From Solwaraspora sp. WMMD792 (lineage in GTDB: Bacteria > Actinomycetota > Actinomycetes > Mycobacteriales > Micromonosporaceae), in assembly GCF_029626105.1 (NCBI RefSeq), contig NZ_JARUBH010000009.1, positions 5,394,001 to 5,458,000 of the forward strand: 64,000 nucleotides of DNA. The letters are read 5' to 3'. The translations under genes and the position numbers were made by a program. Under the pieces are notes generated by a model, which ran no database searches, was not told the DNA's origin, and saw nothing but the letters and a program-made list of their open reading frames with translations. Shown here piece after piece: positions 8,558-61,601 of this stretch; position 1 is the first letter of the stretch; each line of letters opens with the position of its first letter.

Positions 8558-8804
8558 GACCGCCCCATCGCCGTCGGCGGCGTGTCCGGCCACGGCTCCG
8601 CCGCTGACCGGAATCGACCGACGACCGAGCATGCGACAGGAGACAAGGCAGGTCACCGCCATAACCCAGAAGATCGATATATGGCAATTTTTCAAAGTTC
8701 CGGATGCCAGACTATCAATCATCGCCGCCAACAGCAATGAGTGACGCGACTTGCGCCACGAGTAGTTGAGCTGTCTGATCGTGAGCCGTGCCAAAATTCG
8801 TTTA
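8558..8804 (-). promoter_or_regulatory. Promoter region of the pseudopeptide operon
   Basis: No gene is present. An unusually AT-rich patch around 8670-8710 (GATATATGGCAATTTTTC) stands out from the surrounding GC-rich DNA. It is the only plausible promoter region for the seven-gene operon. I cannot assign exact -35 and -10 boxes. Confidence 0.45.
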
Positions 8805-9447
8805 CCGGCGGTGACCTGGTGTTTTGAAGATCAGTTCAGGCTGCTCGGTGGTACTCGTTGATCACTCCACCGAGGCGTCTTCGGCGGCGTGTGGGCTTGT
8901 CGATGGGGATGGCGACGGACGGATCATGGTTGGGTGGCCGCTGCTGGCGTCTTGGTGTGGTCGGTGGTTGTTGAAGTGGTCGACGTACTCAGCCGACTAC
9001 GGCGTGCGCGTGGCGCTCGTTGTAGATCAGCATGTGGTCGGTGCACTCGTCGCGGAGGCTGCGTCCCCAGCGTTCGATGAAGCAGTTGGCCTGTGGGGTC
9101 CGGGGTGGGGTCTTGACCACGGTGATGCCCTCGGTTGTCAAGAAATCATCGAAGGCGGTGGTGTACTTGGCGTCGCGGTCGCGGATGAGGAATCGGAGCC
9201 GGTTGGCGCGCTCGCCCAGGTCGAAGGCGAGGTTGCGCTGCGGATCAACAATCCCAGACCGTTGAACAGGCGGATCATCCCCAGGTACAGCAACCGCACG
9301 ACCATACCGACGATCATCGACCCAAGCCGAGAACTCCCAGCTCACAACATGTGCGACGAGTTTTGGCACGGTACACGGATTTCGCGGCTTCCACGAGCCG
9401 CCGAGTTCGTTCACAAGACCTGCGCCACTGTGACCCCAGCCGAACAC
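8805..9447 (-). pseudogene. Truncated integrase-core transposase, right copy
   Basis: The minus strand encodes LRFLIRDRDAKYTTAFDDFL, then TPPRTPQANCFIERWGRSLRDE and CTDHMLIYNERHA. This is the C-terminal part of a DDE integrase-core transposase of the IS3/IS481 kind, with the second Asp and the final Glu of the catalytic triad visible. The N-terminal helix-turn-helix and first Asp are replaced by unrelated sequence, and the C-terminus breaks at about 9000. The outer end (8805-8870) matches the left copy at 1037-1095 in the same orientation. Confidence 0.7.
9377..9413. repeat. Scar repeat shared with 476-514
   Basis: This stretch of about 37 bp matches 476-514, including GCCGAGTTCGTTCAC. With the two transposase ends it makes a second pair of repeats flanking the pseudopeptide operon. 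Confidence 0.5.
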
Positions 9448-9484
9448 CGTGTCCGAGCGGAAGTGTCGCCGTTATCGTTGACCG

Positions 9485-10438
9485 GTGATCGGCAACCTTG
9501 AGAAATTCCAGGGCGAGCTGGCCGCCAGCGGGTTTCCGCCGCTGGTCAACAAGCTGGCCGGGGCCGACTTCCGGGGCCGGATCGCCACCCGAGACCTCGG
9601 GCCGCTGCGACTGGTCTCCCTCGACACGCCCGAGAGCGCCTGCATCGGGCGGAAGCGCGACGCCTCCGACGGCGAGAACCTGGCGATCAAGGTGATGACC
9701 CGGGGCCAGACGCGGATCGAGCAGGGGCGCGGCGACGCCGAACTCGGGCCGGCCGACCTGGTGCTGCTCGATCCCACGCGTACGCTGCGGTTTGAGAGCA
9801 CCGCCTCGGCGCACGTCACCATACTGGTTCCGCGCCGGGAGCTTCGGATTCGGCCCGCGCAGATCGACCGGCTCATTGGCGTACGCATCGACGGCAGTCG
9901 CGGTCCGGGTGCTCTCGTCTCCGTGTTGGCCCGCGAATCCGTACGGTCGGCGACCGAGTTCCGCGAGGCGGAGGCGCTGCGGTCGGCGGCGGCCGTCATC
10001 GAGCTGATCGCGGTCGCACTGGAGGCCCGGCTGGGCGACGAACAACCGGCCCCGGACGAGCGGCTGCGTGACCGGATCGCCGGCTACATCGAGGCCCGGC
10101 TGGCCGATCCCGATCTGTCCCCGCCCGGCATCGCCGCCGCCCACCACATCTCCGTACGCCGGCTGCACAAGCTGTTCGAGGACCAGCCGCTCACCGTCGC
10201 GGCCCTGATCCGTCGCCGCCGCCTGGAGCGCTGCCGCGCCGAGCTGGCCGGGAGCGGACGTACGGTCACCGCCGTGGCCGCCCGGTGGGGATTCTCCGAT
10301 CCCACCCATTTCAGCAAGCTCTTCAAGACGACGTACGGCTACAACGCCCGCGCACTCGTAACCAACAACCGTGCACGCACGACCAGGACGGGCACGGCCG
10401 GTCCGGAACAGGATGGTGGTCACCAAGGCAGTCGATAG
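9485..10438 (+). CDS. AraC-family transcriptional regulator
   Basis: This 317-residue regulator has an N-terminal cupin-like sensing domain of the AraC-binding-like type and a C-terminal AraC helix-turn-helix pair: ISVRRLHKLFEDQPLTVAALI and VAARWGFSDPTHFSKLFKTTYG. A basic tail of about 25 residues follows. GTG start at 9485. The stop lies 2 bp before the cupin gene, so the regulator probably controls the cupin/oxidoreductase pair. It resembles the AraC protein at 44.7 kb in architecture. Confidence 0.85.
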   Translation: MIGNLEKFQGELAASGFPPLVNKLAGADFRGRIATRDLGPLRLVSLDTPESACIGRKRDASDGENLAIKVMTRGQTRIEQGRGDAELGPADLVLLDPTRTLRFESTASAHVTILVPRRELRIRPAQIDRLIGVRIDGSRGPGALVSVLARESVRSATEFREAEALRSAAAVIELIAVALEARLGDEQPAPDERLRDRIAGYIEARLADPDLSPPGIAAAHHISVRRLHKLFEDQPLTVAALIRRRRLERCRAELAGSGRTVTAVAARWGFSDPTHFSKLFKTTYGYNARALVTNNRARTTRTGTAGPEQDGGHQGSR

Positions 10439-41085: not shown

Positions 41086-41437
41086 TCTGGTCGCCGTAAA
41101 CGAACTGGACCGGCTCCTGCGCCGGGGCTGGTTCGTGCGGTACGTCTTCGCTGCCGAGGAACTGGCCCAGGCGGAGACGCTCGGCGACAGCCGACGCCGG
41201 GAGTACCTGGCGGGACGGTTCGCTGCGAAGGAAGCGGTGCTCAAGGTCCTGGGCACCGGCCTGTTCGAGGGGGTCGCTCCCCGGGACATCGCGTTGCTGC
41301 GCCGCCCCGGCGGGGCACCCCACGTCACGTTGCGGGGCAGCGCCGCCCAGGCAGCACGGTCGGCCTCGATCACCCACGTGACCGTCTCCGTCACCCACAA
41401 GCGGGACCTGGTCGCCGTGGTCGCTGCCGGATGGTGA
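41069..41437 (+). CDS. Holo-ACP synthase (AcpS-type phosphopantetheinyl transferase)
   Basis: The 122-residue protein has the two AcpS signatures: GIDLVAVNELDRL with the Mg-binding Asp, and LAGRFAAKEAVLKVLG with the Glu and Lys. It transfers phosphopantetheine from CoA to a carrier-protein serine. Its place at the end of the biosynthetic operon makes the 38.1-kb ACP its likely target. GTG 41069 starts at the conserved RLGIDL strand. It overlaps the regulator start (ATGGTGA). Confidence 0.87.
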   Translation: MRLGIDLVAVNELDRLLRRGWFVRYVFAAEELAQAETLGDSRRREYLAGRFAAKEAVLKVLGTGLFEGVAPRDIALLRRPGGAPHVTLRGSAAQAARSASITHVTVSVTHKRDLVAVVAAGW

Positions 41438-44412
41438 CTCGGCAGCGCCCGCTGGGCGATCAAGGTGACCAGCAGCGGAATCCAGGGTGGGCGTTGCTGT
41501 CCCGCCCGCCCGGCCGGTCAGCCGCAGCCGATGGCCACCGCCGGCCACTGGTGGGCCGGGAACGGGAGACCGAGGTGCTGGCGGCGGCCGTGACCGCTCT
41601 GCTCGACGGCGAAGGGCGGATCGTCGAAGTGGCGGGCGAGCCGGGGATTGGCAAGACCAGGCTGCTCGACCAGGTCGCCGTGGTGGCGCGAGGACACGGG
41701 GTGCAGGTGCTCGCCGGCCGAGCTCCGGTGCCCGGCTCGGACGTGCCGATGGCGGCGATGGTGGATGCGCTGGAGCCGTACCTGCCCCGGGTGTCACCGG
41801 CACGCCTGGCCGAGCTCCGGTCCGATCACGCGCAGTTGCTCAACGCCATCTTTCCGTCGCTGCGCTTGGCTGGCGCCCGTTCGCTGGCCCCGGCCGGCGT
41901 ACCAGTGGGCGCCCGGCAAGTACGCGCCGTGCGGCTGTTGCTGGAGACGCTGGCAGCCGAACGGCCGCTGCTGATCATGTTGGACGACCTGCACAACAGC
42001 GACCGGGCCACCGTCGACCTGCTCTGCCACCTGCTCGACGCGCCCCCGCGTACACCGCTGCTTCTGGTCATGGCGCACCGCCGTCGCCAGTCACCGGCCC
42101 GGCTGCGCCTGGCACTGGACACCGCCAGGCAGGTGACCCGGATCGAGGTCGCGCCGCTCACCCGGGGCCATCTCGACGCGCTGACCGACGTGCCGCTCTC
42201 GGCCAACCAGCGTGCGATGCTGCATGAATTGTCGGGGGGCAACCCGCAGTACCTGTCGGCATTGTTGGCCGCGGTGCCACTACCTGGCACAGCGAGCGAA
42301 CTGCCAGAACTGGGGACACTCCCAGCCGACGTGGATGCCGCGTTGGCCACCGAACTCGAACTGCTGTCCCGGCCGGCCGGCCTGGTGGCCTCGGCCGCCG
42401 CGGTGCTCGGGCCCGAGCCGGTCGACACCGGCCTGCTGACCGAGGTGGCCGGGATCGCCACCGAACAGGTGCCTGCGGCCATCGACGAACTCGTCGCCGC
42501 AGATCTGCTGCGCCCGGTAACCGGCAGCGGGTGTTTCGCCTTCCGGCACCGCGTGGTCCAGCACGCGGCGTACCTCACCACCGACGCCGGCTGGCGCCTG
42601 ACCGCGCACGCCCGCGCGTTGGCGGAGTTGCGGCGTCGCCGGAGCCACCCCGAAGTTCAGGCACCGCACCTGCTGCGGCTGGCAGTGCCCGGTGACGTCG
42701 TAGCCGTCGAGGTGCTCAGCGAGGCGGCCGCCGCGGTGGTCGACCGGGCCCCTCACACGGCCGTCCGGTGGCTCGGCACCGCCATCCGGCTACTCCCGGG
42801 CACCGCAGAGCCCGCCGGACAGCGGGTAGCGCTCGCCGTGCAGCTCGGCCGGGCGCTGGGCGCGATCGGCCATCCGAGGGCCGGGCGAGCCGTACTGCAC
42901 GACGCCCTGCGGCTGCTCGACGAGCACCCGTCCACGCATCGCACCTCGGCGACCCTGCTCTGCGCCCAGCTCGAACGTCAGCTCGGCCGCCACGGGGAGG
43001 CCGCGGCGTTGCTGCGCACCGCTTTGCCGCCACCCGCCGATGCCCGGCCGGCGGATCATGCGGCCCTGGCACTCGCGCTCAGCGCGGTGGAACTGACCAG
43101 CGGCCGGGCCGGGCAGGCGCGTCGGTGGGCGGCAGCCGCGCTGGGCGCCGCCCGCCGCGCTTCCGGAGTGCCGGGTGCGGTACAGGCGCACGCGTTGGGT
43201 CTGCTCGCGGCCGCGAACCATCTGCGGGGCAACCGTACCGCCGGAGGCGAGACCATCCGAGCGGCAGCGCTGCTCGACGCCACCCTGGACGCGGAACTCG
43301 GCGCGGAGCCGGAGAGCGCCCTGTGGGTGGGCTGGAGCGAGATCCTGCTGGACCGCTTCGACGACGCCGCACACCACCTCAGTCGTGCCATCGATGTCTC
43401 GCCCGGAGCCGCGAGCTACTTTCCCCTGTTGCACCTGTTGTGTACCCGGACCCTGGCCCACCGGTACGCCGGGCGGTTGACGGAGGCAGCCGACGACTGC
43501 GCCGAGGCGCTCCGGCTGGCGTCCGGCACACAGTTCCGCGAACTGCACGTTGCGGCCGAGGCGATGAGCCGGCTGCTGGCCGTTTGGACCGGAGCCGAGC
43601 AGGTCGGGCCGGCTGCGGATCCCGGCACCGTCGACGTGCCCGTCTCCGGTTGGCCGGGCAGGCTGGCGCTGAGCGCGTACGCCGAGACCCGGCTCGCGCT
43701 GGGGGACGCCGCCGGTTGCCTGGCCGTGGCAGCAACCGCCGGGCTGCCGGACCTCGAACCCTGGGCACAGGTCGGCTGGTACGAGATGTTGACCCGGGCC
43801 ACGCTGGCCGAGGGCGACCCGGACGCGGCGGACGAGTGGGCGCAGCGCGCGTACGAGGTGGCCGAGCGACTCGGACGGCCGGGCCGCAGAGCGCTGGCTG
43901 CCTCCGCGGGCGCTCGGGTCTTGGCGCTACGGGATCCCACCGCCGCAGCGGTGGCGGCCAGGGCTGCCGCGGATGTGCTCACCCAGGTCGGAATGCCGCT
44001 GGAGGCCGCGCACGCCCACACAGTAGCCGCGAGAGCGCTGGTGGCCGACGGCGACCGAGATCGGGCCGGTGCGACGTTACGGGTTGCCGAGAAGTTCTTC
44101 GACCGTTGCGGAGCGGGGTTGTTCGCCCGCCAGGTACACACCGAACGACGGCGGCTGGCCGGTGCCTCGGGCGGCGCCCGGCGGGCCCGCCGCCAAGGCG
44201 GGTCCTCGGCCCTGACCCGGCGGGAGACCCAGGTGGCGACGTTGGTCAGCGAAGGGCTGACCAACCGGCAGGTGGCGGCCCGGCTGTTCGTCACCCAGAA
44301 GACGGTGGAGATGCATCTGTCCCACGTGTTCACCAAGCTGGGCGTCACCAACCGGGCCGCCCTGGTGCGCTGCTTCCACCTCAACGGGCTGGCCCCGGCG
44401 CAGTCCTTCTGA
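41431..44412 (+). CDS. LAL-type LuxR-family regulator with AAA ATPase domain
   Basis: The 993-residue regulator has Walker A GEPGIGKT (residues 69-76), Walker B LLIMLDDLH, a long helical TPR-like middle and a C-terminal LuxR helix-turn-helix (LTRRETQVATLVSEGLTNRQ and TQKTVEMHLSHVFTKLGV). Large ATP-binding LuxR regulators usually activate the gene cluster they sit in. It overlaps the AcpS stop, so it is co-transcribed and may act in a positive loop. The first 35 residues are outside the ATPase domain; a downstream start is possible. Confidence 0.88.
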   Translation: MVTRQRPLGDQGDQQRNPGWALLSRPPGRSAAADGHRRPLVGRERETEVLAAAVTALLDGEGRIVEVAGEPGIGKTRLLDQVAVVARGHGVQVLAGRAPVPGSDVPMAAMVDALEPYLPRVSPARLAELRSDHAQLLNAIFPSLRLAGARSLAPAGVPVGARQVRAVRLLLETLAAERPLLIMLDDLHNSDRATVDLLCHLLDAPPRTPLLLVMAHRRRQSPARLRLALDTARQVTRIEVAPLTRGHLDALTDVPLSANQRAMLHELSGGNPQYLSALLAAVPLPGTASELPELGTLPADVDAALATELELLSRPAGLVASAAAVLGPEPVDTGLLTEVAGIATEQVPAAIDELVAADLLRPVTGSGCFAFRHRVVQHAAYLTTDAGWRLTAHARALAELRRRRSHPEVQAPHLLRLAVPGDVVAVEVLSEAAAAVVDRAPHTAVRWLGTAIRLLPGTAEPAGQRVALAVQLGRALGAIGHPRAGRAVLHDALRLLDEHPSTHRTSATLLCAQLERQLGRHGEAAALLRTALPPPADARPADHAALALALSAVELTSGRAGQARRWAAAALGAARRASGVPGAVQAHALGLLAAANHLRGNRTAGGETIRAAALLDATLDAELGAEPESALWVGWSEILLDRFDDAAHHLSRAIDVSPGAASYFPLLHLLCTRTLAHRYAGRLTEAADDCAEALRLASGTQFRELHVAAEAMSRLLAVWTGAEQVGPAADPGTVDVPVSGWPGRLALSAYAETRLALGDAAGCLAVAATAGLPDLEPWAQVGWYEMLTRATLAEGDPDAADEWAQRAYEVAERLGRPGRRALAASAGARVLALRDPTAAAVAARAAADVLTQVGMPLEAAHAHTVAARALVADGDRDRAGATLRVAEKFFDRCGAGLFARQVHTERRRLAGASGGARRARRQGGSSALTRRETQVATLVSEGLTNRQVAARLFVTQKTVEMHLSHVFTKLGVTNRAALVRCFHLNGLAPAQSF

Positions 44413-50183: not shown

Positions 50184-51416
50184 TCAGCCCGGCATTGCCA
50201 CCTGTGCCGGGGTCGACCGGTGGGTGGTGGTGCCGTCACCGAGCTGCCCGAACGTGTTGTCACCCCAGCACCACAGGCTGCCGTCGGTGCGTGCCACGCA
50301 GGCGTGGTAGGTGACGGAGAAGCCGTCCGTCCAGGTGGTCGCGGTGCCGACCTGTGCCGGGGTCGACCGGTGGGTGGTGGTGCCATCGCCGAGCTGCCCG
50401 GACGAATTCTTGCCCCAGCACCACAGGCTGCCATCGGTACGGGTCGCGCACGACGAGTCGAGGCTCGCGTCCACGCTTGCCCAGTTGCTGGCGGCGCCGA
50501 TCCGCAGCGGGGTGGTCTGGGAGCCGACGCCCCCGCCGACCTGGCCGTACCCGTCCTCGCCCCAGCACCACAGCGTCCCGTCGACGCGGACCGCGCAGGT
50601 GTGTACGTAGCCGGCCGTCACCTCGGCCCACGTCGTCGCGGTGCCCACCTGCGTCGGTGTCGCCCGGTAGCTCAGGATGCCGAGACCGAGCTGGCCGTCC
50701 GAGCTACTGCCCCAGCACCACAGGGTCCCGTCGGTCCGCACCGCGCAGGTGTGGGCGTAGCCGGTCGTGACGCTCGCCCAGGTGGTCGCCGTGCCCACCT
50801 GAAGCGGGGTCGTCGCCTTGTAGGGAGACAAGCCGACGCCGAGCTGTGCGTGACGGTTCAGGCCCCAGCACCACAGGGTGCCGTCGGTCCGCACGGCGCA
50901 GGTGTGGTTGCTGCCGATGCTGACGCTCGCCCAGGTGGTGGCGGTGCCTACCTGCACCGGGCTGGTCCGTTTGGTGGTCGAGCCGTCGCCGACCTGCCCG
51001 CTGGAGTTGTTGCCCCAGCACCAGAGCGTTCCATCCGTGCGTACCCCGCAGGTGTTGCCGCTGCCGGCGTCGATACCCGCCCACGTGGTGGCGCTGCCGA
51101 TCTGAACCGGACCGGTCCGGTTCGTGGTGGTCCCGTCGCCGAGCTGGCCGTAGAAGTTGTTGCCCCAGCACCACAGGGTTCCATCGGTCTGGGTCACACA
51201 GGTGTGCAGATTGCCGGCGGCGACCTGGGATACCGGCGCGGCGGCGATCGCCACCTCCCGCGCGTTCCGGTCGGCGGAGCCGACACCTGCCGTTGCTGCG
51301 CCCGCCGTGAACCCGATAGCCAATACGGTGATCCCGACGGAGGCCGCCACCGCGACGGCGGTTCGGGCTGTCCGCCGCCATCGCATCCGCAGCCAACTCT
51401 CCTTGTGTTCGTTCAT
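50184..51416 (-). CDS. Secreted RCC1-repeat beta-propeller protein
   Basis: The 410-residue protein has a signal region (basic [11 protein letters not shown], hydrophobic [20 protein letters not shown]). After it come seven repeats of about 50 residues with the pattern [21 protein letters not shown], as in RCC1/BNR propellers. Each blade has two regular cysteines, suggesting disulphides in an exported protein. Seven blades close a full propeller. The ligand is unknown; such proteins bind proteins or sugars outside the cell. ATG 51416. Confidence 0.85.
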
Positions 51417-51885: not shown

Positions 51886-53190
51886 CTACCGCGCGCCGAG
51901 ATGCTCGGCGGCGTACGCGGTGATCGTCTTGCCGAGGATCACGGCGAGTTCGGCGCACTCGTCGGTGCTGATGGTCAACGGCGGCAGCAGCGGCATCACG
52001 CCGTCGGAGTAGCTGGTCAGCAGCCCGTTGTCCCGGCAGGCCAGCCGGAGCCGGTAGACGTCGCGCACCGTCCACGGCGTACCGTCGTCGCGGTAGCGCA
52101 GCTCCAGGCCGAGCAGCATCCCCTCACCGCGTACGTCACCGACGTGCGGATCGTCGGCCAGCGTGTCACGCAGGATCTCGCACAGCTGCCGGCCACGGTC
52201 GCGGACGCCGTCGAGAAACCCGTCGGCGGTGAGGATCTCCAGGACGGCGAGGCCGGCGGCGGCACCGAGCGGGTGCCCGTCGGTGGTACTGCCGTTCGGG
52301 AAGCCGAGCCGGAACGGCGGCTCGGCGAGCGCGTCGAAGATCGGATCGGCGACCGCGAGCGCGGCGAGCGGGAAGTAGCCGGCGCTGAGCCCCTTGCCGA
52401 GCACGATCATGTCGGGCGGGCTGGGCAGCCGCTCGCTGACCGACATGGCCGCGACCCGGCCGGCGCCGGTGGTCACCTCGTCGGCGACGACATGGATGTC
52501 CCGGGCCCGGCAGTAGTCGATCAGCGCCGCCAACTGCTCGACGCTGGCGGCGTGCAGATAGTTGCCCATCACCGGTTCGACGATGACGGCGGTCACCTGC
52601 GACGCGCCGAGCCGGTCGACGACACCGGCGACGGCGTCGAGCAGTTCGTCGCCGCCGGCGACGTGCACCACGCGGTCGTCCAGCGGCGCCGACCACTCGT
52701 GCAGGATCTGCTCACCGGTGAGCGCGGTGGCCAACGGCCCGGTGCCGTGGTAGCTGCCGTGCACCGCGATGATCCGATCCCGGCCGGTCTCGCCGGTCAT
52801 TCTGCGGTGGAAGCGGGACAGCATGCCGGCTGCCTCGGTCATCTGGCTGCCGGTGTTGCCGAACCGGATGTGCCGCAGGGTCGGCGGCAGCGTCGCGGCG
52901 AGGGCGGCGGCGTACCGCACGGTGACCCGGGGCGGATGCTCGTAGCGCATGACCGTGCCGGACGGCAGCTCGTCGAGCTGGCGGCGCATCGCCGCCTTGA
53001 CCGGCTCGCACGAATAGCCGAGGGTGACGTTCCACATCGACGAGCGGGCGTCGAGGTAACGTCGGCCGGCCTGGTCGACGGCGTAGCTGCCGTCGCCGCC
53101 GACGAGGAACATGTCCGGGTCGGACTCGGCGAGGAACTCGCCCATCGGGGTGATGCCGTGCCAGGCGTGGTAGGTGGACCGGTCGATCAT
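51886..53190 (-). CDS. Class III PLP-dependent aminotransferase
   Basis: The 434-residue enzyme has the class III signature: PLP lysine in MIVLGKGLSAGYFPLAAL, phosphate contacts FGNTGSQMTEAAG and the active-site strand VIVEPVMGNYL with DEVTTGAGR. It moves an amino group between an amine or amino acid and a carbonyl. It is the last gene of a leftward operon after a thiamine-dependent E1 pair, with 4-bp overlaps. Together they could make and aminate an acyloin or aldehyde; that is inference. Confidence 0.87.
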   Translation of the reverse strand: MIDRSTYHAWHGITPMGEFLAESDPDMFLVGGDGSYAVDQAGRRYLDARSSMWNVTLGYSCEPVKAAMRRQLDELPSGTVMRYEHPPRVTVRYAAALAATLPPTLRHIRFGNTGSQMTEAAGMLSRFHRRMTGETGRDRIIAVHGSYHGTGPLATALTGEQILHEWSAPLDDRVVHVAGGDELLDAVAGVVDRLGASQVTAVIVEPVMGNYLHAASVEQLAALIDYCRARDIHVVADEVTTGAGRVAAMSVSERLPSPPDMIVLGKGLSAGYFPLAALAVADPIFDALAEPPFRLGFPNGSTTDGHPLGAAAGLAVLEILTADGFLDGVRDRGRQLCEILRDTLADDPHVGDVRGEGMLLGLELRYRDDGTPWTVRDVYRLRLACRDNGLLTSYSDGVMPLLPPLTISTDECAELAVILGKTITAYAAEHLGAR

Positions 53191-54140
53191 CGGGTGGCTC
53201 CTCGGCGGGCGGTGGACACGACGTGTTCCTCGTCCGGCAGCAGGGCGGCGCTCAGTGGCGGGCTCACCGGCGCCGGGACCGGCGCACCGGCGAGCAGGTC
53301 GAGCCGGTGCGGCGCGACCGCGCCGGCCCGCACCAGATGCAGGCCGAGCGCGGACATGACGCTGACGCCGGCCGGGGCCTCGTCGACCAGGATCACCTGA
53401 CCACCGGCGGCCCGGACCATGGCGGTGACGCCGTCGAGGTCCAGCGGTGCGGCGGTACGCAGGTCGATCACCTGGGCGTGCAGCCCGTCCCGGTCAAGGA
53501 CGGCGGCGGCCCGCAGGCAGGTGGCGACGGTGTTGCCGATGCCGACGAGGGTGAGGTCGCGGCCGGGGCGGGCGCGGCCGGCGACGCCGAACGGCAGTGC
53601 GGCGTCGGTCGGCTCCGGCTCGGGCAGCGACGCCCAGTCAGCGGCGTACAGCCGGGGCGATTCCAGCACCACCACCGGATCCGGGTGCACCAGCGCGGTG
53701 CGCAACAGCCCGGCGGCGGCGTTCGGTGACCCGGGCACCGCGACGACCAGCCCGGGAATCTGGCTGAGCAGGCCGTGCGCGGCGTGTTCGTGCTGCGCGC
53801 CGAGCTGCTCGCCGCCCTGGGTCAATCCGCGCACCACCACCGGTACGGTGAACTGCCCGTCGGACATGTACCGCCACTTGGTGGCCTCGTTGACCAGCTG
53901 GTCGAAGGCGGTGAACAGGAAGGCGGCGCGGGCGATGCTGACCAGCACCCGGCGGCCGAGCAGCGCCATCCCGACCGCCATGCCGAGCATGGTGTTCTCG
54001 GCGATCGGCAGCCGGACCATCCGCTCGGCGCCGAACAGCTCGATGAGGTCGGGCTGCTGGTAGGTGCAGAACATGCTCATCGTGGGCTGGTCGGCCAGGG
54101 CGCCGCGGACCGCCCCGACGGACGGGTGCCGGCGGGTCAT
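53187..54140 (-). CDS. 2-oxoacid dehydrogenase E1 beta subunit (transketolase-like)
   Basis: The 317-residue protein matches PdhB/AcoB-type subunits: FGAERMVRLPIAENTMLGMAVG (cofactor-side Glu), FTAFDQLVNEATKWRYMSDG and a C-terminal transketolase domain with VIDLRTAAPLDLDGVTAMV. It forms the thiamine diphosphate site with the alpha subunit. No E2 or E3 gene is nearby, so it is probably not a normal dehydrogenase complex. It overlaps both neighbours by 4 bp. Confidence 0.87.
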   Translation of the reverse strand: MTRRHPSVGAVRGALADQPTMSMFCTYQQPDLIELFGAERMVRLPIAENTMLGMAVGMALLGRRVLVSIARAAFLFTAFDQLVNEATKWRYMSDGQFTVPVVVRGLTQGGEQLGAQHEHAAHGLLSQIPGLVVAVPGSPNAAAGLLRTALVHPDPVVVLESPRLYAADWASLPEPEPTDAALPFGVAGRARPGRDLTLVGIGNTVATCLRAAAVLDRDGLHAQVIDLRTAAPLDLDGVTAMVRAAGGQVILVDEAPAGVSVMSALGLHLVRAGAVAPHRLDLLAGAPVPAPVSPPLSAALLPDEEHVVSTARRGATR

Positions 54141-55261
54141 GCCACCGGCTCCCGCACCGTGACGGCCTCCGGCCAGGTGGCACCGGGCGGCCAGGCCGCT
54201 GCGGTGACCGCGGTGACCGCGCTGGCCGGATCCGGTCGGTCGGCGGCCAGCGCGTCGGCGAAGACCTCGGCCAGCTCCGCGGTGACCTGCTCGCGGATCT
54301 CGGCGGCCCGCTGCCGGCTGGCAGCGGACGGGCTGGCGAGGGCCGGGCTGGCTGCGGACGGTCCGGCGAGGGCCGGGCTGGCGAGGGCCGCCTCGACGCG
54401 GGTCAGCGGATCCTGGGCCAGCCAGCGCTCCCGCTCGGCGGCCGGACGGTACTCACCCGGCGGCTGCGGCCCGAGCTGGGCGTGGAAATGCCGCAGGTAG
54501 GTGTGGGCGACGAGGACCTGCGGGCGGCCGGCCCGGCAGTGGGCCAGGGCCGCCGCCGCGGCCCGGTGCACCGCGGTCACGTCGTTGCCGTCCACCTCGT
54601 CGCAGTCCAGCCCCAGGCCGCGGGCGATCTCACCGGGGGTACGGTGCCGCACCAGGTCGCTCGGGGTGTGGTCCTGCCAGCCGTTCTCCTCGCAGACCAG
54701 CAGCAGCGGCAACCCGAGCACGGCGGCGACGGTGAGCGTCTCGTAGGCGGCACCGGCACCGAACGCGCCGTCCCCGCAGAACGCGACGACCGCCCGGCCG
54801 CTGCCGGCGGTCTTCTCGGCCAGCGCTGCTCCGGCCGCGATCGGCAGCTGCGCGGCCACAATAGAGCTGGCACCGAGCAGGTAGCGGGACCGGTCGGCGA
54901 TGTGCATCGACCCGGCCTTGCCGCCGCAGACCCCGCCGACCCGGCCGAGGATCTCCCGGGCCAGCCCGGCGGCGGGCACCCCGGCGGCCAGCGCGTGCCC
55001 GTGGCACCGGTAGAAGCTCACCACCCACTCATCGGGCTGCCGGGCGGCCAGCACCCCGACCGCGACAGCTTCCTGCCCGGTGTACGGGTGGACCGATCCG
55101 GGCACCTGGCCGGCGGCGGCGCACCGCAGAACCTGCTCCTCGAAGACCCTGATCCGAACCATCTCGCGGTACGCGTCCGACAGGTCCATCGTCTGGGCGT
55201 TCCCCGTCCCTGCGCCGGTGGAGAACCATTCACCGGCCGCATCGGAAGCAATCATGATCAC
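54137..55261 (-). CDS. 2-oxoacid dehydrogenase E1 alpha subunit
   Basis: The 374-residue protein has the thiamine-diphosphate motif GDGAFGAGAAYETLTVAAVL ending in the Asn of CEENGWQ, and YTGQEAVAVGVLAA and RCHGHALAAG near the start. With the beta subunit it decarboxylates a 2-oxo acid and may transfer the acyl unit. Residues about 290-315 are a low-complexity Ala-Ser-Pro-Leu segment encoded by near-repeats (54320-54400). ATG 55189 (MDLSDAYREM) is an alternative start. Confidence 0.87.
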   Translation of the reverse strand: MIMIASDAAGEWFSTGAGTGNAQTMDLSDAYREMVRIRVFEEQVLRCAAAGQVPGSVHPYTGQEAVAVGVLAARQPDEWVVSFYRCHGHALAAGVPAAGLAREILGRVGGVCGGKAGSMHIADRSRYLLGASSIVAAQLPIAAGAALAEKTAGSGRAVVAFCGDGAFGAGAAYETLTVAAVLGLPLLLVCEENGWQDHTPSDLVRHRTPGEIARGLGLDCDEVDGNDVTAVHRAAAAALAHCRAGRPQVLVAHTYLRHFHAQLGPQPPGEYRPAAERERWLAQDPLTRVEAALASPALAGPSAASPALASPSAASRQRAAEIREQVTAELAEVFADALAADRPDPASAVTAVTAAAWPPGATWPEAVTVREPVA

Positions 55262-55331
55262 CTGCTGAATGTCGCCAATTATAGGTGAACGATCGACGCT
55301 GGTCGCAATACTGGAATTGGTCGGGGTCCGG

Positions 55332-56576
55332 TCAGGATGTGGTCAGGTTGTGGGTGGCCACCCGCCGGGAAACGACGGTGACGGTGCCGAGAAAAGCTAT
55401 GGCAGCGAAGCAGATCAGGGTGGGCAGCACCCCCCAGAGTTGCGCCGCGACGCCAGCGAGCAGCGATCCGACCGGCACCGCCAGCACCGCGAGCGCCCGG
55501 CTCAACGCGAGCACCCGGCCCAGCAGCGGGCCGGGGACCACGGACTGCTGCAGCGACACCGAGGCGATCAGCCAGACCGTGGCGCAGTACCCGAAGATCG
55601 TCTCGTAGACGATCAGGGTCAGCACCGACGGCGTGACGGCGGCCAGCGGGATCAGCATCAGAGCGGCCCCGGCGAGCGGGGCGAACACCGGGACCACCCG
55701 GGGATGGCCGAGCCGGGCGATCACCCGTCGCGCGGTGGCCACGCCGACGACGGCGGCGACGCTGTTCACCGCGAAGGTCAACCCGAGCACCCACGGCGAC
55801 AGGTCGAGGACCCGGTAGGCGTACAGCACGTAGAGGCCGCCGATCGCGGATCCGCCGAGGTTCAGCGCGGCGGCGGTGACCGCGATCCGGACCAGCTCCG
55901 GACGGCCGCGTAGCGCCGCCACCCCGTCGCGCAACGCCCGTAGTGGATGTTCCGGCACCGGCGGCGTCCCGCCCGGCCGGGGCCGCAGCGCGGCGAAACC
56001 GGCGGCGGCCAGCGCCTGCGCCGCGGCGTTCGCCGACATCGCCAGCGCCCCGCCGAGGGTCTGCACCAGCCAGCCGGCCAGCGCCGGCCCGGCGATCTGG
56101 CCGGCCGACTGGGCACCGGCCAGCGCGGCGTTCGCCGGCACCAGCCGGTCCGGTTCGACCAGTTGCGGCACGGTGGCCTGCAGGCCGATGGTGACCAGCC
56201 CACCGAGGATGCCGGACAGGCCGGCCACGGCGTACAGCAGCGGCAGCGAGAGCACTCCGGCCAGCGCGGCGACCGGTACGGCCAGCACCACGGCGGCGGT
56301 GCCGGCGCTGGCGGCCATGAGCAGCCGGCGCCGGTCGACGACCCGGTCGACGACCACCCCGAGCAGCGGTGCGGCGAGCGCCTGGGCGCCGTACTCGAGG
56401 GCGAACAGGGTGGCCGCCGCCACCGGCGAGGCGTGCAGCGCCACCACCGCGACGGTCGGCAGGGCCAGCGCGGCGACGTGGGTGCCGACGACGCTGGCGG
56501 CCTGAGCGGCGACGGCCGGGCGCAGCGGTCGATCCACCGCGATCGACGTGGCGAGACGGCCGGGCATGGGCACCAC
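55332..56576 (-). CDS. Major facilitator superfamily exporter
   Basis: This 414-residue protein has about twelve membrane segments and the pattern of EntS/DHA3-type drug exporters (GVVVDRVVDRRRLLMAAS loop between segments 2 and 3). It is the first gene of the leftward operon, 70 bp before the E1 alpha start, and divergent from the RiPP operon. It is a likely exporter of the locus product. ATG 56576 follows GGAG. Confidence 0.85.
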   Translation of the reverse strand: MVPMPGRLATSIAVDRPLRPAVAAQAASVVGTHVAALALPTVAVVALHASPVAAATLFALEYGAQALAAPLLGVVVDRVVDRRRLLMAASAGTAAVVLAVPVAALAGVLSLPLLYAVAGLSGILGGLVTIGLQATVPQLVEPDRLVPANAALAGAQSAGQIAGPALAGWLVQTLGGALAMSANAAAQALAAAGFAALRPRPGGTPPVPEHPLRALRDGVAALRGRPELVRIAVTAAALNLGGSAIGGLYVLYAYRVLDLSPWVLGLTFAVNSVAAVVGVATARRVIARLGHPRVVPVFAPLAGAALMLIPLAAVTPSVLTLIVYETIFGYCATVWLIASVSLQQSVVPGPLLGRVLALSRALAVLAVPVGSLLAGVAAQLWGVLPTLICFAAIAFLGTVTVVSRRVATHNLTTS

Positions 56577-56860: not shown

Positions 56861-57619
56861 ATGGCACTCATCGATGCCGATGATCTTGATCGCAACGAGT
56901 TGGCGTACCGCGTCTTCGGCGTGACCCGCGACAAGACGCCGTGGCGCGCCGCGGACATCATCGCCGACGGGCCGGCGGACCCCAGCTGGGAGCGGGCCGA
57001 GCTGGCCTGGCGGATGTCCTCGCGCGGCTACTACGCCGAGCAGGCCGGGCTGGTCGCCGCCGCGACGCTGGCCGCGCAGACCGAGGACGCGCCGCTGCGG
57101 TTCAGCCTCGCCCTGGCCACCGCCGACGAGGCCCGACACGCGGACGCCTTCTACCAGTACGCGAAGCTGGTCGGCGGCGGTGAGCCGGAGCCGGAGGCGC
57201 CCGAGCTGATGGAGCCGCTGGACACGGCGCTGACCCGGCTGCCGTACATGGGCCGGGCGCTGGTGCACACCATGCTGGAGGGGTTCGCCGCCGACGAGTT
57301 CATCCTGCTGCGCGAGGTGTTCGCCGGTGACCCGCTCGGCCTGCTCTACCACCACGTACGCCGCGACGAGATCCAGCACGTCGCGATCGGCCTGAACTAC
57401 CTGGCCCGCGAGTCCGCCACGGGCGAGGGACGCGAGCTGTGGCGCGAGTACGGGTCGCAGTGGCATGAGATCGGCATGCGACTGACCTACCTGGACAAGA
57501 TCTCGGTGTCCCTCGCCGATTTGACCGGCCGCGAGCCCGACCGGCTGCGGCACTGGTTTCTCCGCCGGCACCGGGCCCGCCTGAGCGCCGGTGGAGTCGA
57601 CATGGACGGAGGGAGGTGA
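56861..57619 (+). CDS. Ferritin-like diiron protein (R2-type oxidase)
   Basis: The 252-residue helical protein has two EXXH pairs in order: E60 (YYAEQAG), E90-x-x-H93 (ADEARHADAF), E140/E146 (LEGFAADEF) and E170-x-x-H173 (RRDEIQHVAIG). This is the diiron four-helix-bundle pattern of ribonucleotide-reductase R2-like and fatty-acid-desaturase-like oxidases. It probably activates O2 to oxidise the peptide or another pathway intermediate. The stop overlaps the ribosome binding site of the precursor peptide. ATG 56861 is preferred over TTG 56855. Confidence 0.83.
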   Translation: MALIDADDLDRNELAYRVFGVTRDKTPWRAADIIADGPADPSWERAELAWRMSSRGYYAEQAGLVAAATLAAQTEDAPLRFSLALATADEARHADAFYQYAKLVGGGEPEPEAPELMEPLDTALTRLPYMGRALVHTMLEGFAADEFILLREVFAGDPLGLLYHHVRRDEIQHVAIGLNYLARESATGEGRELWREYGSQWHEIGMRLTYLDKISVSLADLTGREPDRLRHWFLRRHRARLSAGGVDMDGGR

Positions 57620-57624
57620 AGATC

Positions 57625-57708
57625 TTGACCATCAAGAAGGTCACCATCAAGACGCCGGCTCACGGCACCTGCAAGTACCTGGTCCCGACTCGGAAGGCCG
57701 AGAAGTGA
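57625..57708 (+). CDS. Candidate RiPP precursor peptide, 27 residues
   Basis: A TTG at 57625 is preceded by a near-perfect GGGAGGTGA (57611-57619) at 5-nt spacing. It opens a 27-codon frame. The peptide starts MTIKKVTIKTPAHG, has one cysteine (residue 15), one tyrosine (residue 17), LVP after it, and a basic end with KAEK. It contains six lysines. The frame sits between the diiron gene and a radical SAM maturase of the RiPP type, the usual place for a precursor. A GTG at 57616 would give 30 residues but leaves the binding site inside the frame. The peptide would be easily missed because of its length. Confidence 0.7.
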   Translation: MTIKKVTIKTPAHGTCKYLVPTRKAEK

Positions 57709-57762
57709 CCGCGGCCGGCGAAGCGCGGGTAAGACCGCGTGGAGGGCCGAAGACGTGATCGG

Positions 57763-57790
57763 CCGGATGGGGCGGTCCCGCCCCATCCGG
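57763..57790 (+). terminator. Hairpin between precursor peptide and maturase
   Basis: Positions 57763-57775 and 57778-57790 are exact reverse complements: a 13-bp stem with a 2-nt loop. It lies 54 bp after the peptide stop and 42 bp before the maturase start. In RiPP operons such hairpins stop most transcripts after the precursor, so more peptide than enzyme is made. Confidence 0.75.
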
Positions 57791-57832
57791 CGCACCTCGG
57801 TACGACGCGCTCACCAACTGGAGGCCCGGCCG

Positions 57833-59725
57833 ATGTCCGTATGTCTGGTCGCCATGCCCTGGCAGGCCATCGAATCACCATCACTGCCGATCGGGTTGCT
57901 CAAGGCGGTGACCGTCGCCAGCGGGCGGCCCGCCCCGACGGCGTACCACGGCAGCCTGCGCTGGGCCGAGTTCCTGATGGAACGCAGCGACGGCGAGCTG
58001 AGCCCGGCCGACTACACCGAGGTCGCCGAGGTGGGCCTGTTCGACGGCCTCGGTGACTGGGTCTTCGCCGGGGTGCTGCATGACGACCCCGAGTTCGGCG
58101 TGGAGACGTTGCGCCGCTACGCGGCCGAGTACGGCACCGGCATCGCCGGCCCGACCGCGATGCGCCAGTACGCCGCCGACTTCGTCGAGCTGGCCGCCGC
58201 CGAGATCCTCGCCAACGATCCCCGGCTGGTCGGCTTCACCACCACGTTCATGCAGAACGTGCCGAGCCTCGCGGTCGCCCGGCGGATCCGCCAGCTCGAC
58301 CCGGGCGTACGGATCGCGTTCGGAGGTGGCAACTGCGACGGCGCGATGGGGATCGCCCTGCACCGCAACTTCCCGTTCGTCGACTTCGTGGTACGCGGCG
58401 AAGGCGAGGTCGCGTTCCCGATGCTGCTCGACGCGCTCGACGCTGGCGACGACAGCCTCGACGCCAGCGACAACCTCGGTGCCGACGACAGCCTCGACGC
58501 CCGGCTCGCCCGGATACCCGGGCTGTCCTGGCGCCGGGCCGACGGCACCGCGCGGCACAACCCGCAGGGCACGCTGCTGCCCCCGGCACGCATCCCCACC
58601 CCGGACTTCGACGACTGGTTCGACCAGCTCGCCGCCTCGCCGGTCGGCGAGTACATCGAACCCAAGCTGGTCCTGGAGGGCGCCCGGGGCTGCTGGTGGG
58701 GCGAGAAGCACCACTGCACCTTCTGCGGGCTCAACGGCACCGCGATGACGTTCCGGGCCAAGCCCGCCGAACGCATGATCGCCGAGATGACCGAGCTGGT
58801 CGGCCGGCACCAGACCCTAGACGTGATCATGGTCGACAACATCATCGACAACCACTACTACGCCGATTTCCTCCCCCGCGTCGCCGCGCTCGGCTGGGAC
58901 CTGCGGCTGCACTACGAGGTCAAGTCCAACCTGCGCCCGACCGAGATCGACGCGCTGCGCGCCGCCGGCGTGGCCCACGTACAGCCCGGCATCGAATCGC
59001 TGGTCAGCCCGGTACTCAAGCTGATGGACAAGGGCGTCTCCGGCGTCCACAACGTACGGACCCTGCGCGACTGCGAGTCCGCCGGCCTCACCGTGTCGTG
59101 GAACTGGCTGTACGGGTTCCCCGGCGAACGCCGCGCCGACTACGACTCGGTGCTGCGTCAGCTCCCCCGGCTGATGCATCTGCAGCCGCCGGCCGGTTCG
59201 TCGCGGATCCTGCTCGAACGCTTCAGCCCGTACTTCGAGAACCCGGTGCTCGGCTTCCCGACCCGCCGGGCCGCCCGGCTCTACCAGCACGTCTACGACC
59301 TGCCCGAGAACGAGCTGGCCGACCTGGTCTACCTGTTCGACACCGAACCCGCCGGCCTGTCCGAGCAGGATGCCGAGCCGTTGAACGAGCTCCTCAAACG
59401 CTGGACCGACGGCTATCCGGCCAGCGCGCTGCAGCTGCTCACCGGCCTGGACGCCGATGAGATCGTGATCGCCGACCGACGCGTCGGCTGGCCGGACCGC
59501 GAACACCGCATCGCCGACCCCCGGCTGCGCCGCGCCTACGCCGAGCTGGAACACGGCCGTACCGTCCCGGCCCTGGCCGGGCGGCTCGCCGCCGCCGGGC
59601 TGCCGGTGGAGACCGACCGGCTGGCGCGGTGGCTGGCCGAACTCGACGACGCCGGGTTGGTCTTCGATGAGAACGGCCGCTGGATCACCCTGGCGACCGC
59701 CGTCGAGCCGGTCAAGGTGGCTTGA
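57833..59725 (+). CDS. B12-binding radical SAM RiPP maturase
   Basis: The 630-residue protein has an N-terminal cobalamin-binding-like domain (LVGFTTTFMQNVPSLAVARR, IAFGGGNCDGAMG) and a radical SAM domain whose cluster cysteines are C287, C295 and C298 in GCWWGEKHHCTFCGLNG. That spaced motif is typical of the RiPP (bacteriocin) maturation radical SAM protein 1 family. A C-terminal helical part of about 150 residues follows. Such enzymes methylate or otherwise alter unactivated carbons in a peptide. ATG 57833 follows GGAGG. Residues about 205-225 carry an Asp-rich near-repeat. Confidence 0.87.
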   Translation: MSVCLVAMPWQAIESPSLPIGLLKAVTVASGRPAPTAYHGSLRWAEFLMERSDGELSPADYTEVAEVGLFDGLGDWVFAGVLHDDPEFGVETLRRYAAEYGTGIAGPTAMRQYAADFVELAAAEILANDPRLVGFTTTFMQNVPSLAVARRIRQLDPGVRIAFGGGNCDGAMGIALHRNFPFVDFVVRGEGEVAFPMLLDALDAGDDSLDASDNLGADDSLDARLARIPGLSWRRADGTARHNPQGTLLPPARIPTPDFDDWFDQLAASPVGEYIEPKLVLEGARGCWWGEKHHCTFCGLNGTAMTFRAKPAERMIAEMTELVGRHQTLDVIMVDNIIDNHYYADFLPRVAALGWDLRLHYEVKSNLRPTEIDALRAAGVAHVQPGIESLVSPVLKLMDKGVSGVHNVRTLRDCESAGLTVSWNWLYGFPGERRADYDSVLRQLPRLMHLQPPAGSSRILLERFSPYFENPVLGFPTRRAARLYQHVYDLPENELADLVYLFDTEPAGLSEQDAEPLNELLKRWTDGYPASALQLLTGLDADEIVIADRRVGWPDREHRIADPRLRRAYAELEHGRTVPALAGRLAAAGLPVETDRLARWLAELDDAGLVFDENGRWITLATAVEPVKVA

Positions 59726-59726
59726 G

Positions 59727-60275
59727 ATGGGTACGGCGACGCTGCTCACCGACCGTACTGAACTGGCCGCCTGGTCGCTGCGGACGGTGACCCTGCCGGA
59801 GCCGCTGGACTTCGGCCACTCTCCCGAGCAGGACCTGGCCCAGTTGCGGTTCCTGCGCGCGGTGACCAGCCACGCGGTACGGCTGCGCTGGACCCTGCGC
59901 GGGCGGCCGTCGTTCCCGCTGGACACCCACGTGCACCTGGTCGCGCCGTCGGCCGGCACCGATCAGGCCAGCCGGGCCTACGCCGGCGAATGGGGCCTGG
60001 CCTACCGGTACGGCAGCTGCTACTACCGTCGCGGGCCGGGAATGGTGGTGGTCAAGGACGTCCGGCCCGGGGTCGATGCCAGCCGGATGGTGATCACCGA
60101 CGGCGCGGACGCGTTCCTGCGGCTGGCTGAGGACCCGTCCGGGGTGCCGGCGCCGGGCGACGTCGACGCGGCGGCCGTCGCCGTCGAAGCCGGGCTGGCC
60201 TGCGCCGCCGGCGACACGGTGCTGATCCTGCCCTACCGGATGCGGCACTGGCCGGTGCCGCACGTGGCAGTGTGA
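59727..60275 (+). CDS. DUF5825-like protein next to the maturase
   Basis: This 182-residue protein has LRTVTLPEPLDFGHSPEQDL, FLRAVTSHAVRLRW and YRYGSCYYRRGPGMVVVKDV. I recognise it as the kind of protein (DUF5825) that is often found beside RiPP radical SAM maturases. Its function is unknown; it may bind the leader or help the maturase. It starts 1 bp after the maturase stop. The cysteine in GSCYYRRGPG is the only striking residue. Confidence 0.65.
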   Translation: MGTATLLTDRTELAAWSLRTVTLPEPLDFGHSPEQDLAQLRFLRAVTSHAVRLRWTLRGRPSFPLDTHVHLVAPSAGTDQASRAYAGEWGLAYRYGSCYYRRGPGMVVVKDVRPGVDASRMVITDGADAFLRLAEDPSGVPAPGDVDAAAVAVEAGLACAAGDTVLILPYRMRHWPVPHVAV

Positions 60276-60287
60276 GGCGGCCCGACC

Positions 60288-61601
60288 GTGACCGCCTCCG
60301 CGCCGCACGACCCGCAGCCAACCGACCCGCAGCCGCACGACCCGCAGCCAACCGACCCGCAGCCGCACGAGCCGCCGCTGTACCCGTTCCGCGACTACGA
60401 CGAGCTGGGGCTGGACCCGCGGCTGGCCCGGCTGCGCGCCGAGTGCCCGGTGTCCCGGATCCGGCTGCCGTACGGCGGTGACGCCTGGCTCGCCACCCGC
60501 TACTCCGACGTGACGACGGTGCTCGCCGACCCCAGGTTCAGCCGGGCCGCCGCCTGCGGCCCGGACGTGCCCCGGCAGACCGAGGCGCCGCCGGTGGCCA
60601 CCACCATCCTGGACCTGGACCGGCCCGAACATGGCCGGCTGAGACGCATCGCGGCCAGCGCGTTCGCCCAGTGGCGCATCGAGCGACTACGCCCGTACGT
60701 CCGGCAGGTCGCCGCCGAACGGATCGACGCGCTGCTGGCCGGCCCGGCACCGGGCGACCTGTACGCCGCGGTCGCGTTGCCGGTGCCGCTGGCCGTGCTG
60801 TGCCACGTCCTCGGCGTACCGCTGGCCGACCGGGACCGGTTCCGCGCCTGGACGCACGCGCTGCTGATGCCCGGGCCGATGCCGGCCGACGAGTTCCGGT
60901 CGGTCGCCGCCGCGCTGGAGGACTATCTGCGGGAGCTGATCGCACACCGCCGTGAGTCGGCCACCGGCGACCTGCTGAGCATGCTGGTCCGGGCGACCGA
61001 CAACGGCGACCGGATGACCGAGCAGGAGCTGGTGTCGTTCGGCGTGACCCTGCTCGCCGCCGGGTTCGAGACCACGGCCAGCCAGCTGGCCAGTTCGGCG
61101 TACCTGCTGCTGCGCCACCGCCACCTCTGGGAATTGCTTGGCCGGGAGCCGGACCGGGTGCCGGCGGTGGTCGACGAGCTGCTCCGGTTCGTGCCCCTCA
61201 ACGGCGGCAGCGGGCTGCCCCGGGTGGCGACCGAGGACGTCGAGCTGGGTGGGGTGACGGTCCGGGCCGGGGAGGCGGTGTTCGCCTCGACCATCTCCGC
61301 CAACCGTGATGACGCGGTGTTCCCGGACGCGGACACCTTCGACCCGGACCGGCGCCCGACGGCCCGGCATGTCACCTTCGGCTACGGTCCGCACCGCTGC
61401 CTCGGGGCCTGGCTGGCGACGATGGAGATCCAGGAGGTGGTCGGCGCGCTGGTCGCGGCGGCGCCGGGTCTGCGGCTGGCCGACCCGGACGGGGTACGGT
61501 GGCGCGCCGGAACCATCGTGCGCGGCCCGCTCGCGCTGCCGGTCGACTGGCCGACGGGCCGGACGTCCACCGGTCAGTCCGGCGGCGCACCGCCGGCCTG
61601 A
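60288..61601 (+). CDS. Cytochrome P450
   Basis: The 437-residue P450 has the I-helix AAGFETTAS, the ExxR in VDELLRF and the heme loop FGYGPHRCLG with Cys371 as iron ligand. Residues 6-27 are two copies of a His-Asp-Pro-Gln repeat not seen in the family. It is the last gene of the RiPP-like operon and may oxidise or cross-link the tyrosine of the peptide, as P450s do in other very short RiPPs. GTG 60288. It ends 7 bp from the convergent SulP gene. Confidence 0.88.
   Translation: MTASAPHDPQPTDPQPHDPQPTDPQPHEPPLYPFRDYDELGLDPRLARLRAECPVSRIRLPYGGDAWLATRYSDVTTVLADPRFSRAAACGPDVPRQTEAPPVATTILDLDRPEHGRLRRIAASAFAQWRIERLRPYVRQVAAERIDALLAGPAPGDLYAAVALPVPLAVLCHVLGVPLADRDRFRAWTHALLMPGPMPADEFRSVAAALEDYLRELIAHRRESATGDLLSMLVRATDNGDRMTEQELVSFGVTLLAAGFETTASQLASSAYLLLRHRHLWELLGREPDRVPAVVDELLRFVPLNGGSGLPRVATEDVELGGVTVRAGEAVFASTISANRDDAVFPDADTFDPDRRPTARHVTFGYGPHRCLGAWLATMEIQEVVGALVAAAPGLRLADPDGVRWRAGTIVRGPLALPVDWPTGRTSTGQSGGAPPA
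60306..60365 (+). repeat. Two exact 30-bp repeats in the P450 N-terminus
   Basis: The 30-bp unit beginning CACGACCCGCAGCC occurs at 60306-60335 and 60336-60365, with part of a third copy. It adds a proline-rich lead to the enzyme and could vary in number by slippage. Confidence 0.8.

Follow-up and report, generated by a model that had tools for sequence, protein, structure and literature searches.

A 64,000-nucleotide stretch of the genome of Solwaraspora sp. WMMD792 (contig NZ_JARUBH010000009.1, positions 5,394,001 to 5,458,000; the whole stretch is called the window below) contains a cluster of nine genes, eight of them conserved and one an accessory, arranged around a gene for a 27-amino-acid (aa) peptide. 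With somewhat more confidence than doubt, the cluster is read as the biosynthetic locus of an undescribed peptide that is ribosomally made, modified and exported, in which a B12-binding radical S-adenosylmethionine (rSAM) enzyme with a DUF5825 partner is combined with an R2-like oxidase and with thiamine and aminotransferase chemistry. A preliminary description of this DNA had placed a diiron protein, the short peptide, a B12 rSAM enzyme, DUF5825 and a cytochrome P450 at 56861..61601, as a unit resembling those for ribosomally synthesized and post-translationally modified peptides (RiPPs), in which a single very short peptide is flanked by three oxygen- or radical-dependent enzymes. All five genes are confirmed by profiles, ligand residues and open reading frame (ORF) calls, and the RiPP-like character of the unit is supported by its gene content and by selection on the peptide. 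The span was drawn too narrowly, since four more conserved genes lie beyond it at 51886-56573; these encode a major facilitator superfamily (MFS) transporter, the E1-alpha- and E1-beta-like subunits of a thiamine-diphosphate 2-oxoacid enzyme and an aminotransferase.

The genes of the cluster occur together. In 354 genomes of the window's family (Micromonosporaceae), the window's own included, the diiron protein has matches in 53 genomes at E 1e-3, of which 14 lie at 67-100% identity, two at 37% (loci L053 and L054) and 37 are weaker. Neither the 37 weak matches, which are partial and have E above 1e-12, nor the two at 37% were taken to represent the system; L053 and L054 gave no rSAM match with the low-complexity filter on. 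The rSAM enzyme is found at 64-100% identity in exactly the 14 diiron genomes, the next best match reaching 59% (genome G039), and matches at E 1e-100 extend to 48 genomes; matches of 25-31% that arose without the low-complexity filter were discarded and their loci searched again with it. Full-length E1-beta is present at 66-100% in exactly the same 14 genomes, with a partial 64% match in G168. The aminotransferase is present at 64% or more in 13 genomes, all within the 14, and at just 42-48% in four more (including G272) and as a second gene in G269. The searches of G156, G221 and G225 reported one internal stop in the aminotransferase, yet uninterrupted frames of 427-437 aa are called there. 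Related genomes are not independent, and for this reason no probability is assigned to the pattern of joint occurrence.

The 13 further family loci with a close diiron relative (L040-L052) were then fetched. Like the window, all 13 hold the MFS, E1-alpha, E1-beta, diiron, peptide, rSAM and DUF5825 genes, which lie within about 10 kb in the fetched loci; the presence of E1-alpha was judged in this set of loci. The P450 gene is at seven of the 14 loci (the window, L040, L041, L042, L048, L050 and L051). A P450 search of nine genomes covered the seven without the gene at the locus, G272, which has it, and G168; among the seven, the best P450 elsewhere is 43-49% identical in five, and none is found at E 1e-60 in two. 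Within the family the P450 is thus an accessory gene, conserved less strictly than the MFS, E1 and aminotransferase genes. The preliminary description had grouped the diiron and P450 genes alike with the maturase and the peptide; the diiron gene does keep this company, at 14 of 14 family loci and at two outside the family, but the P450 does so weakly, being at half of the family loci and at neither outside locus. The full set is found in four of the seven genomes of the window's genus, and the other three have no diiron, E1-beta or aminotransferase match at the thresholds used and each a 46-47% rSAM match. The cluster is spread over four of the 44 genera of the family. A search of 394 genomes of the class at E 1e-25 returned no diiron match except the window's own, and plasmids returned none. 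A broad contig scan found four diiron loci, two in Micromonospora (M. qiuiae and M. phaseoli) and two outside the family, in Actinopolyspora xinjiangensis (L037) and Streptomyces sp. S.PNR 29 (L039).

The precursor peptide gene (MTIKKVTIKTPAHGTCKYLVPTRKAEK; 57625..57708, + strand) lies between the diiron and rSAM genes, as does a peptide ORF in all 13 fetched loci. Its start is read as the TTG at 57625, directly behind GGAGGTGA, which precedes the ORF in 18 of 19 copies, the exception being L039. Relatives have ATG or GTG at the position of 57625, and TTG in L040 and L041. A longer frame from a GTG at 57616, which overlaps the diiron stop codon, was rejected because relatives begin at the 57625 position. 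In the family, the length of the primary copies ranges from 22 to 31 aa. Two copies each are present in L047, L048 and L050, and the copies within a locus are unlike each other; the first copies of L048 and L050 are the most divergent (34 aa, with THGVSQHC and THGVSKHC), were treated as secondary and were excluded from the conservation counts. The 17 primary copies that remain come from the 14 family loci, with L047 contributing two, and from L037 and L039. M1, I3, V6 and Y18 are invariant in all 17, while G14, C16 and K17 are conserved in 16 and H13 in 15. The presumed core of the peptide is centred on the motif HGxCKY, preceded by an N-terminal part of approximately MTIKKVTIKTPA in the window and MKIKKVxIKKVT in relatives. 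Groups of 5, 5 and 4 copies gave pooled ratios of nonsynonymous to synonymous differences (pN/pS) of 0.26, 0.42 and 0.40, respectively. Between the window, L040 and L041 on one side and L042 and L043 on the other, the peptide ORF is 85-86% identical in DNA, compared with 46-53% for the downstream spacer; nearer relatives such as the window and L040 are little informative, because ORF and spacer have hardly diverged. Given the low pN/pS, the ribosome-binding site in 18 of 19 copies and the conservation of the ORF above that of the spacer, the peptide ORF is a genuine gene under purifying selection. The peptides of L049 and L045 stop at residues 22 and 23, shortly after the core, which suggests that HGxCKY and about four further residues are the needed part.

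The gene before the peptide (56861..57619, + strand) encodes a 252-aa diiron protein with no Pfam or NCBIfam family above cut-off. In an alignment of 18 diiron proteins, which includes those of L053, L054, L037 and L039, the residues E60, E90, H93, E140, E170 and H173 are invariant; they make up two ExxH motifs and two additional carboxylates of ligand type, in the order expected of an R2-like dimetal oxidase. The profile of these 18 relatives matches R2-like oxidase structures (7qbk, E 8.1e-4; 6i90, E 2.2e-3); among the R2-like oxidase and small-subunit chains that it finds, ten lie at E 8e-4 to 0.018. The ligands of the R2-like ligand-binding oxidase R2lox are given as E69, E102, H105, E167, E202 and H205 in PMC6060897, and each has an invariant Glu or His counterpart here, the first of them one position off in the alignment. 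The protein differs from R2lox in being shorter than its 316-residue chains and only remotely similar, and the R2lox residues of the ether cross-link, Val72 and Tyr162, correspond by alignment count to Ala62 or Gly63 and to Val135. It is probably an R2-like dimetal-carboxylate oxidase. The 37%-identical relatives in L053 and L054 lie beside nonribosomal peptide synthetase genes, together in L053 with ornithine cyclodeaminase-like and lysine/ornithine N-monooxygenase-like genes; perhaps an R2-like oxidase is employed in non-ribosomal pathways at these two loci.

The rSAM gene follows the peptide (57833..59725, + strand). Its product scores 571 bits against TIGR03975 (cut-off 281.85) when the frame is started at 57755, and NCBIfam gives this family the name of a RiPP C-methyltransferase. 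The Radical SAM domain is found at 36.9 bits (cut-off 29.5) and the B12-binding domain at 30.9, slightly below its cut-off of 32.1. A DUF5825 gene (59727..60275, + strand; PF19142, 81.9 bits, cut-off 25), probably encoding a partner of the rSAM enzyme, is followed by the accessory P450 gene (60288..61601, + strand; PF00067, 103 bits, cut-off 22.8). Among proteins of solved structure, those nearest in sequence to this P450 are of the macrolide type, for example 2y46 and 5uhu. In a tree of 35 rSAM sequences, 16 of them linked to a diiron gene, 15 of the 16 fall in one clade with support of 100/98, and L039 lies outside it. The PADLOC models, consulted for an anti-phage role, gave no match for the diiron, DUF5825 or rSAM proteins.

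The remaining conserved genes are on the opposite strand in the window. A probable exporter of the MFS (55332..56573, − strand; PF07690, 82 bits) is followed by E1-alpha (54137..55261, − strand; PF00676, 163.9 bits), E1-beta (53187..54140, − strand) and a class III (omega-type) pyridoxal-phosphate aminotransferase (51886..53190, − strand; PF00202, 197.7 bits). The E1-alpha coordinates are those of the listed ORF, and its true start is possibly internal; the alignment of this protein to E1-alpha of human pyruvate dehydrogenase extends through the GDG stretch. Both transketolase-type domains, PF02779 and PF02780, score above cut-off in E1-beta. An assignment of the gene beside E1-beta as an E2 subunit was rejected, as the profile search returns an aminotransferase. 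No E2 acyltransferase (PF00198) gene is found in the window, and six matching stretches lie elsewhere in the genome, the nearest more than 320 kb away. Because the window has no E2 gene, the E1 pair would suit a decarboxylase or a carboligase better than a dehydrogenase complex.

Two gene orders are observed. In ten loci (the window, L040-L047 and L049) the MFS gene and the E1/aminotransferase block lie upstream of the diiron gene on the opposite strand. In the other four (L048 and L050-L052) the MFS gene comes after DUF5825 or the P450, on the strand that carries these genes, with the E1 genes beyond it on the other strand; the blocks are rearranged in these loci yet remain adjacent. In G168, a locus at C1:1448000-1466000 (L114) contains decayed fragments of the aminotransferase, E1-beta, rSAM and DUF5825 genes side by side at approximately 7642-10207. 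E1-beta and the aminotransferase are assigned to the unit because they occur in the same 14 and 13 genomes, stay adjacent after rearrangement and have decayed together with the other genes in G168.

Several observations weigh against the reading of the cluster as one biosynthetic unit. L037 and L039 contain the diiron, peptide, rSAM and DUF5825 genes and a lower-similarity MFS gene after DUF5825, with no E1 genes, P450 match or matching aminotransferase within about 20 kb (an aminotransferase gene of L039 belongs to biotin synthesis, being a bioA beside bioD, and was excluded from the counts). Because they are absent from these two loci, E1-alpha, E1-beta and the aminotransferase are not universally required, and they are dispensable for some diiron-peptide-rSAM systems. 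L051 (G272) lacks the aminotransferase, whose best NCBIfam match in the window, daptide_amino, reaches 239.2 bits and so stays well under the cut-off of 450. The assignment of the diiron protein to the R2-like oxidases depends on the pattern of ligands and on profile matches with weak E-values. The peptide core is not fully constant, since CKY is replaced by SQH or SKH in the secondary copies of L048 and L050, and the core of L039 is KAANKY, with neither Cys nor His. One rSAM enzyme in the diiron clade (L087/L111) comes from a locus that has no diiron gene and a candidate peptide with another core. On the tree the diiron label changes three times, whereas shuffled labels need 11.9 changes on average; the branches of L037, L039 and L087 are flagged as long and their placement as unsure. 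Finally, Pfam and NCBIfam searches with the nine cluster proteins turned up no protease.

The loci outside the family bear most directly on a rather unlikely alternative, in which the product is a clavusporin-like C-methylated RiPP for which only the diiron, peptide, rSAM, DUF5825 and MFS genes matter, and the E1 pair and aminotransferase are neighbours that make a separate molecule or building block. This would explain why L037 and L039 hold just those five genes without the E1 pair and why L051 does without an aminotransferase, and it fits the division of strands, with peptide, diiron, rSAM and DUF5825 on one and the E1 and aminotransferase genes on the other. A separate function is harder to reconcile with E1-beta sharing its 14 of 354 genomes exactly with the diiron gene and the aminotransferase being present in 13 of these and nowhere else at that identity, or with the adjacency of these genes after rearrangement and the remains of both, in G168, beside those of the rSAM and DUF5825 genes.

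Two further alternatives concern the peptide, and both are improbable. It could be a small regulator or docking subunit of an enzyme and no precursor of a product, as might be suggested by its very small size, by an N-terminal half as conserved as the core and by the lack of a protease among the cluster proteins searched. Its position before the TIGR03975 enzyme is, however, that of a RiPP precursor, and other members of the rSAM family (L111, L115 and L117) have different candidate short peptides before the rSAM gene when a ribosome-site filter is applied; with the same filter, L112, L113, L116 and L118 show no convincing short peptide or none. The two mutually different copies in each of L047, L048 and L050 also argue against a regulator or subunit. 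The second possibility, held to be about as remote, is that the peptide is trimmed to a very small cofactor- or siderophore-like molecule that retains Cys16, Lys17 and Tyr18. Pyrroloquinoline quinone (PQQ) and mycofactocin are examples of small cofactors derived from peptides. A length of 22-31 aa, the near-invariant C-K-Y, a tail that is variable or lost past residue 22 and the MFS transporter would all be in keeping with such a molecule. The same protease searches count against it, and no PQQ or mycofactocin family is among the Pfam and NCBIfam matches listed for the cluster proteins (for the aminotransferase, the best 25 only); the patchy spread over 14 of 354 genomes and four of 44 genera suits a specialised metabolite better.

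For the favoured reading, an undescribed modified and exported peptide, the following scheme is proposed, in which the peptide is taken to be the substrate. The N-terminal part, approximately MTIKKVTIKTPA, would serve for recognition, and the small core that follows would have HGxCKY at its centre. Of the modifications of this core, C-methylation is most likely the work of the TIGR03975 enzyme and its DUF5825 partner; the R2-like dimetal oxidase most likely introduces oxygen at the invariant Tyr18 or at a core residue adjoining it. A carbonyl of the modified peptide, or of a fragment excised from it, would next be the substrate of E1-alpha, E1-beta and the class III aminotransferase. In one version, the oxidase would give a 2-oxo acid, the E1 pair would decarboxylate it to an aldehyde and the aminotransferase would convert this to an amine. 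In another, the E1 pair would add a pyruvate-derived two-carbon unit to an aldehyde, for example one from Lys17, with transamination following. L037, which has no E1 or aminotransferase genes, reads RGVCRY in place of HGxCKY; the Arg at the position of Lys17 fits a role of this residue in the thiamine and transamination chemistry, though this is only a hint, as L039 keeps the Lys without those genes. The MFS protein would export the product, and the P450 would contribute an extra oxidation in some species only.

More tentatively, and with appreciable doubt, the cluster may represent a new class of RiPP, with a ribosomal peptide that has a side chain or a terminus rebuilt by an R2-like dimetal oxidase and a thiamine-dependent E1 enzyme and, after these, by an aminotransferase. 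If so, thiamine carbon-carbon bond chemistry and oxidation of the ribonucleotide-reductase type would operate on a genetically encoded peptide, and RiPP chemistry would gain two enzyme types, R2-like oxidases and thiamine E1 enzymes. A literature search in which subscription papers and preprints were poorly covered found neither an R2-like oxidase nor an E1/aminotransferase pair in a RiPP cluster, nor any description of the present cluster; the core motif returned one unrelated plant peptide. Its eight genes, its proposed 27-aa substrate and its sharp pattern of presence and absence across the family make the set compact and testable. It would also be a second setting for the rSAM/DUF5825 pair, clearly unlike that of the clavusporins.

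Several known systems are comparable. For clavusporins, the comparison draws on PMC12257519 and PMC12951456. Their C-methylation is reported to be carried out by a homologous rSAM/DUF5825 pair (PMC12257519), and the likeness to the present cluster lies in a TIGR03975 rSAM gene adjoining DUF5825 and a short precursor. Clavusporin clusters have the prolyl oligopeptidase MpcP, whereas Pfam searches with the nine proteins of the cluster and with six of their neighbours in the window found no enzyme of this type, the rest of the genome being unsearched for proteases. The core also differs, and the present cluster adds the R2-like oxidase, the E1 pair, the aminotransferase, the MFS transporter and sometimes the P450. 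The short peptide of aminopyruvatides is likewise a substrate of three enzymes, namely a non-heme iron oxidase, a P450 and a C-methylating B12-rSAM enzyme, and an iron enzyme forms an alpha-keto group on it (PMC10635010), a precedent for the carbonyl proposed here. That oxidase, however, is a multinuclear non-heme iron-dependent oxidative enzyme (MNIO), a RiPP recognition element protein and a methyltransferase replace the E1 and aminotransferase proteins, and the core is Tyr-Leu-Tyr with a C-terminal Asp, unlike HGxCKY (PMC10635010). The matches listed for the nine cluster proteins include no MNIO (DUF692) family, and the rSAM and P450 proteins reach 76.3 bits against the ApyD model (cut-off 750) and 75 against ApyO (cut-off 525).

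Biphenomycin-like pbs clusters also bring an iron oxidase and a B12-rSAM enzyme to a short motif, and sister clusters carry a second B12-rSAM with DUF5825, but pbs has an MNIO, an arginase, a cupin hydroxylase, a TldD-type protease and another motif (PMC12257519). The earlier statement that no characterised RiPP has this set of enzymes is therefore fair in the literal sense, and aminopyruvatides (P450, B12-rSAM and MNIO) and biphenomycins (MNIO and B12-rSAM) are nevertheless close precedents. The class III aminotransferase of daptides works on a ketone that is part of a ribosomal peptide (PMC10036551). The aminotransferase here resembles omega-type enzymes in general and has the daptide model as its best NCBIfam match, but the conserved genes include no oxidative decarboxylase or methyltransferase of the daptide type, and no conserved C-terminal Thr, a daptide feature, is present, the 19 peptide copies ending in K, L, S or R. 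A PEARL-type (peptide aminoacyl-tRNA ligase) scaffold peptide was rejected, as no LanB-like family was found among the cluster proteins searched.

Further observations concern paralogues and neighbouring genes. The same genome has two paralogous loci, L002 (G000:C9 near 5856338) and L003 (near 502321), which fall in a separate clade of the rSAM tree. Each has a TIGR03975-type rSAM gene, a gene judged by eye to be DUF5825-like and, from the Peptidase_S9 family (PF00326), a peptidase gene, with differing candidate short precursors, and they resemble clavusporin clusters. In L117, a 60-aa candidate peptide with repeated RSYKI/RGYKV-like units lies at approximately 8091-8273, upstream of a TIGR03975-type rSAM gene, and is possibly a multi-core precursor. 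G353 has a second TIGR03975-type rSAM gene (50%) about 850 bases from a P450 gene (42%), at C1:3565961-3569781. A gene for an RCC1-repeat protein (50184-51416, − strand) adjoins the aminotransferase gene in the window, and a relative occupies the same position in L041. In L048, L050, L051 and L052, a gene for an AAA/LuxR-type regulator of 1006-1175 aa adjoins the diiron gene in divergent orientation (profiles were run for L048 and L052), and a regulator of the same type is encoded in the window at 41431-44412, about 7.5 kb from the aminotransferase gene.

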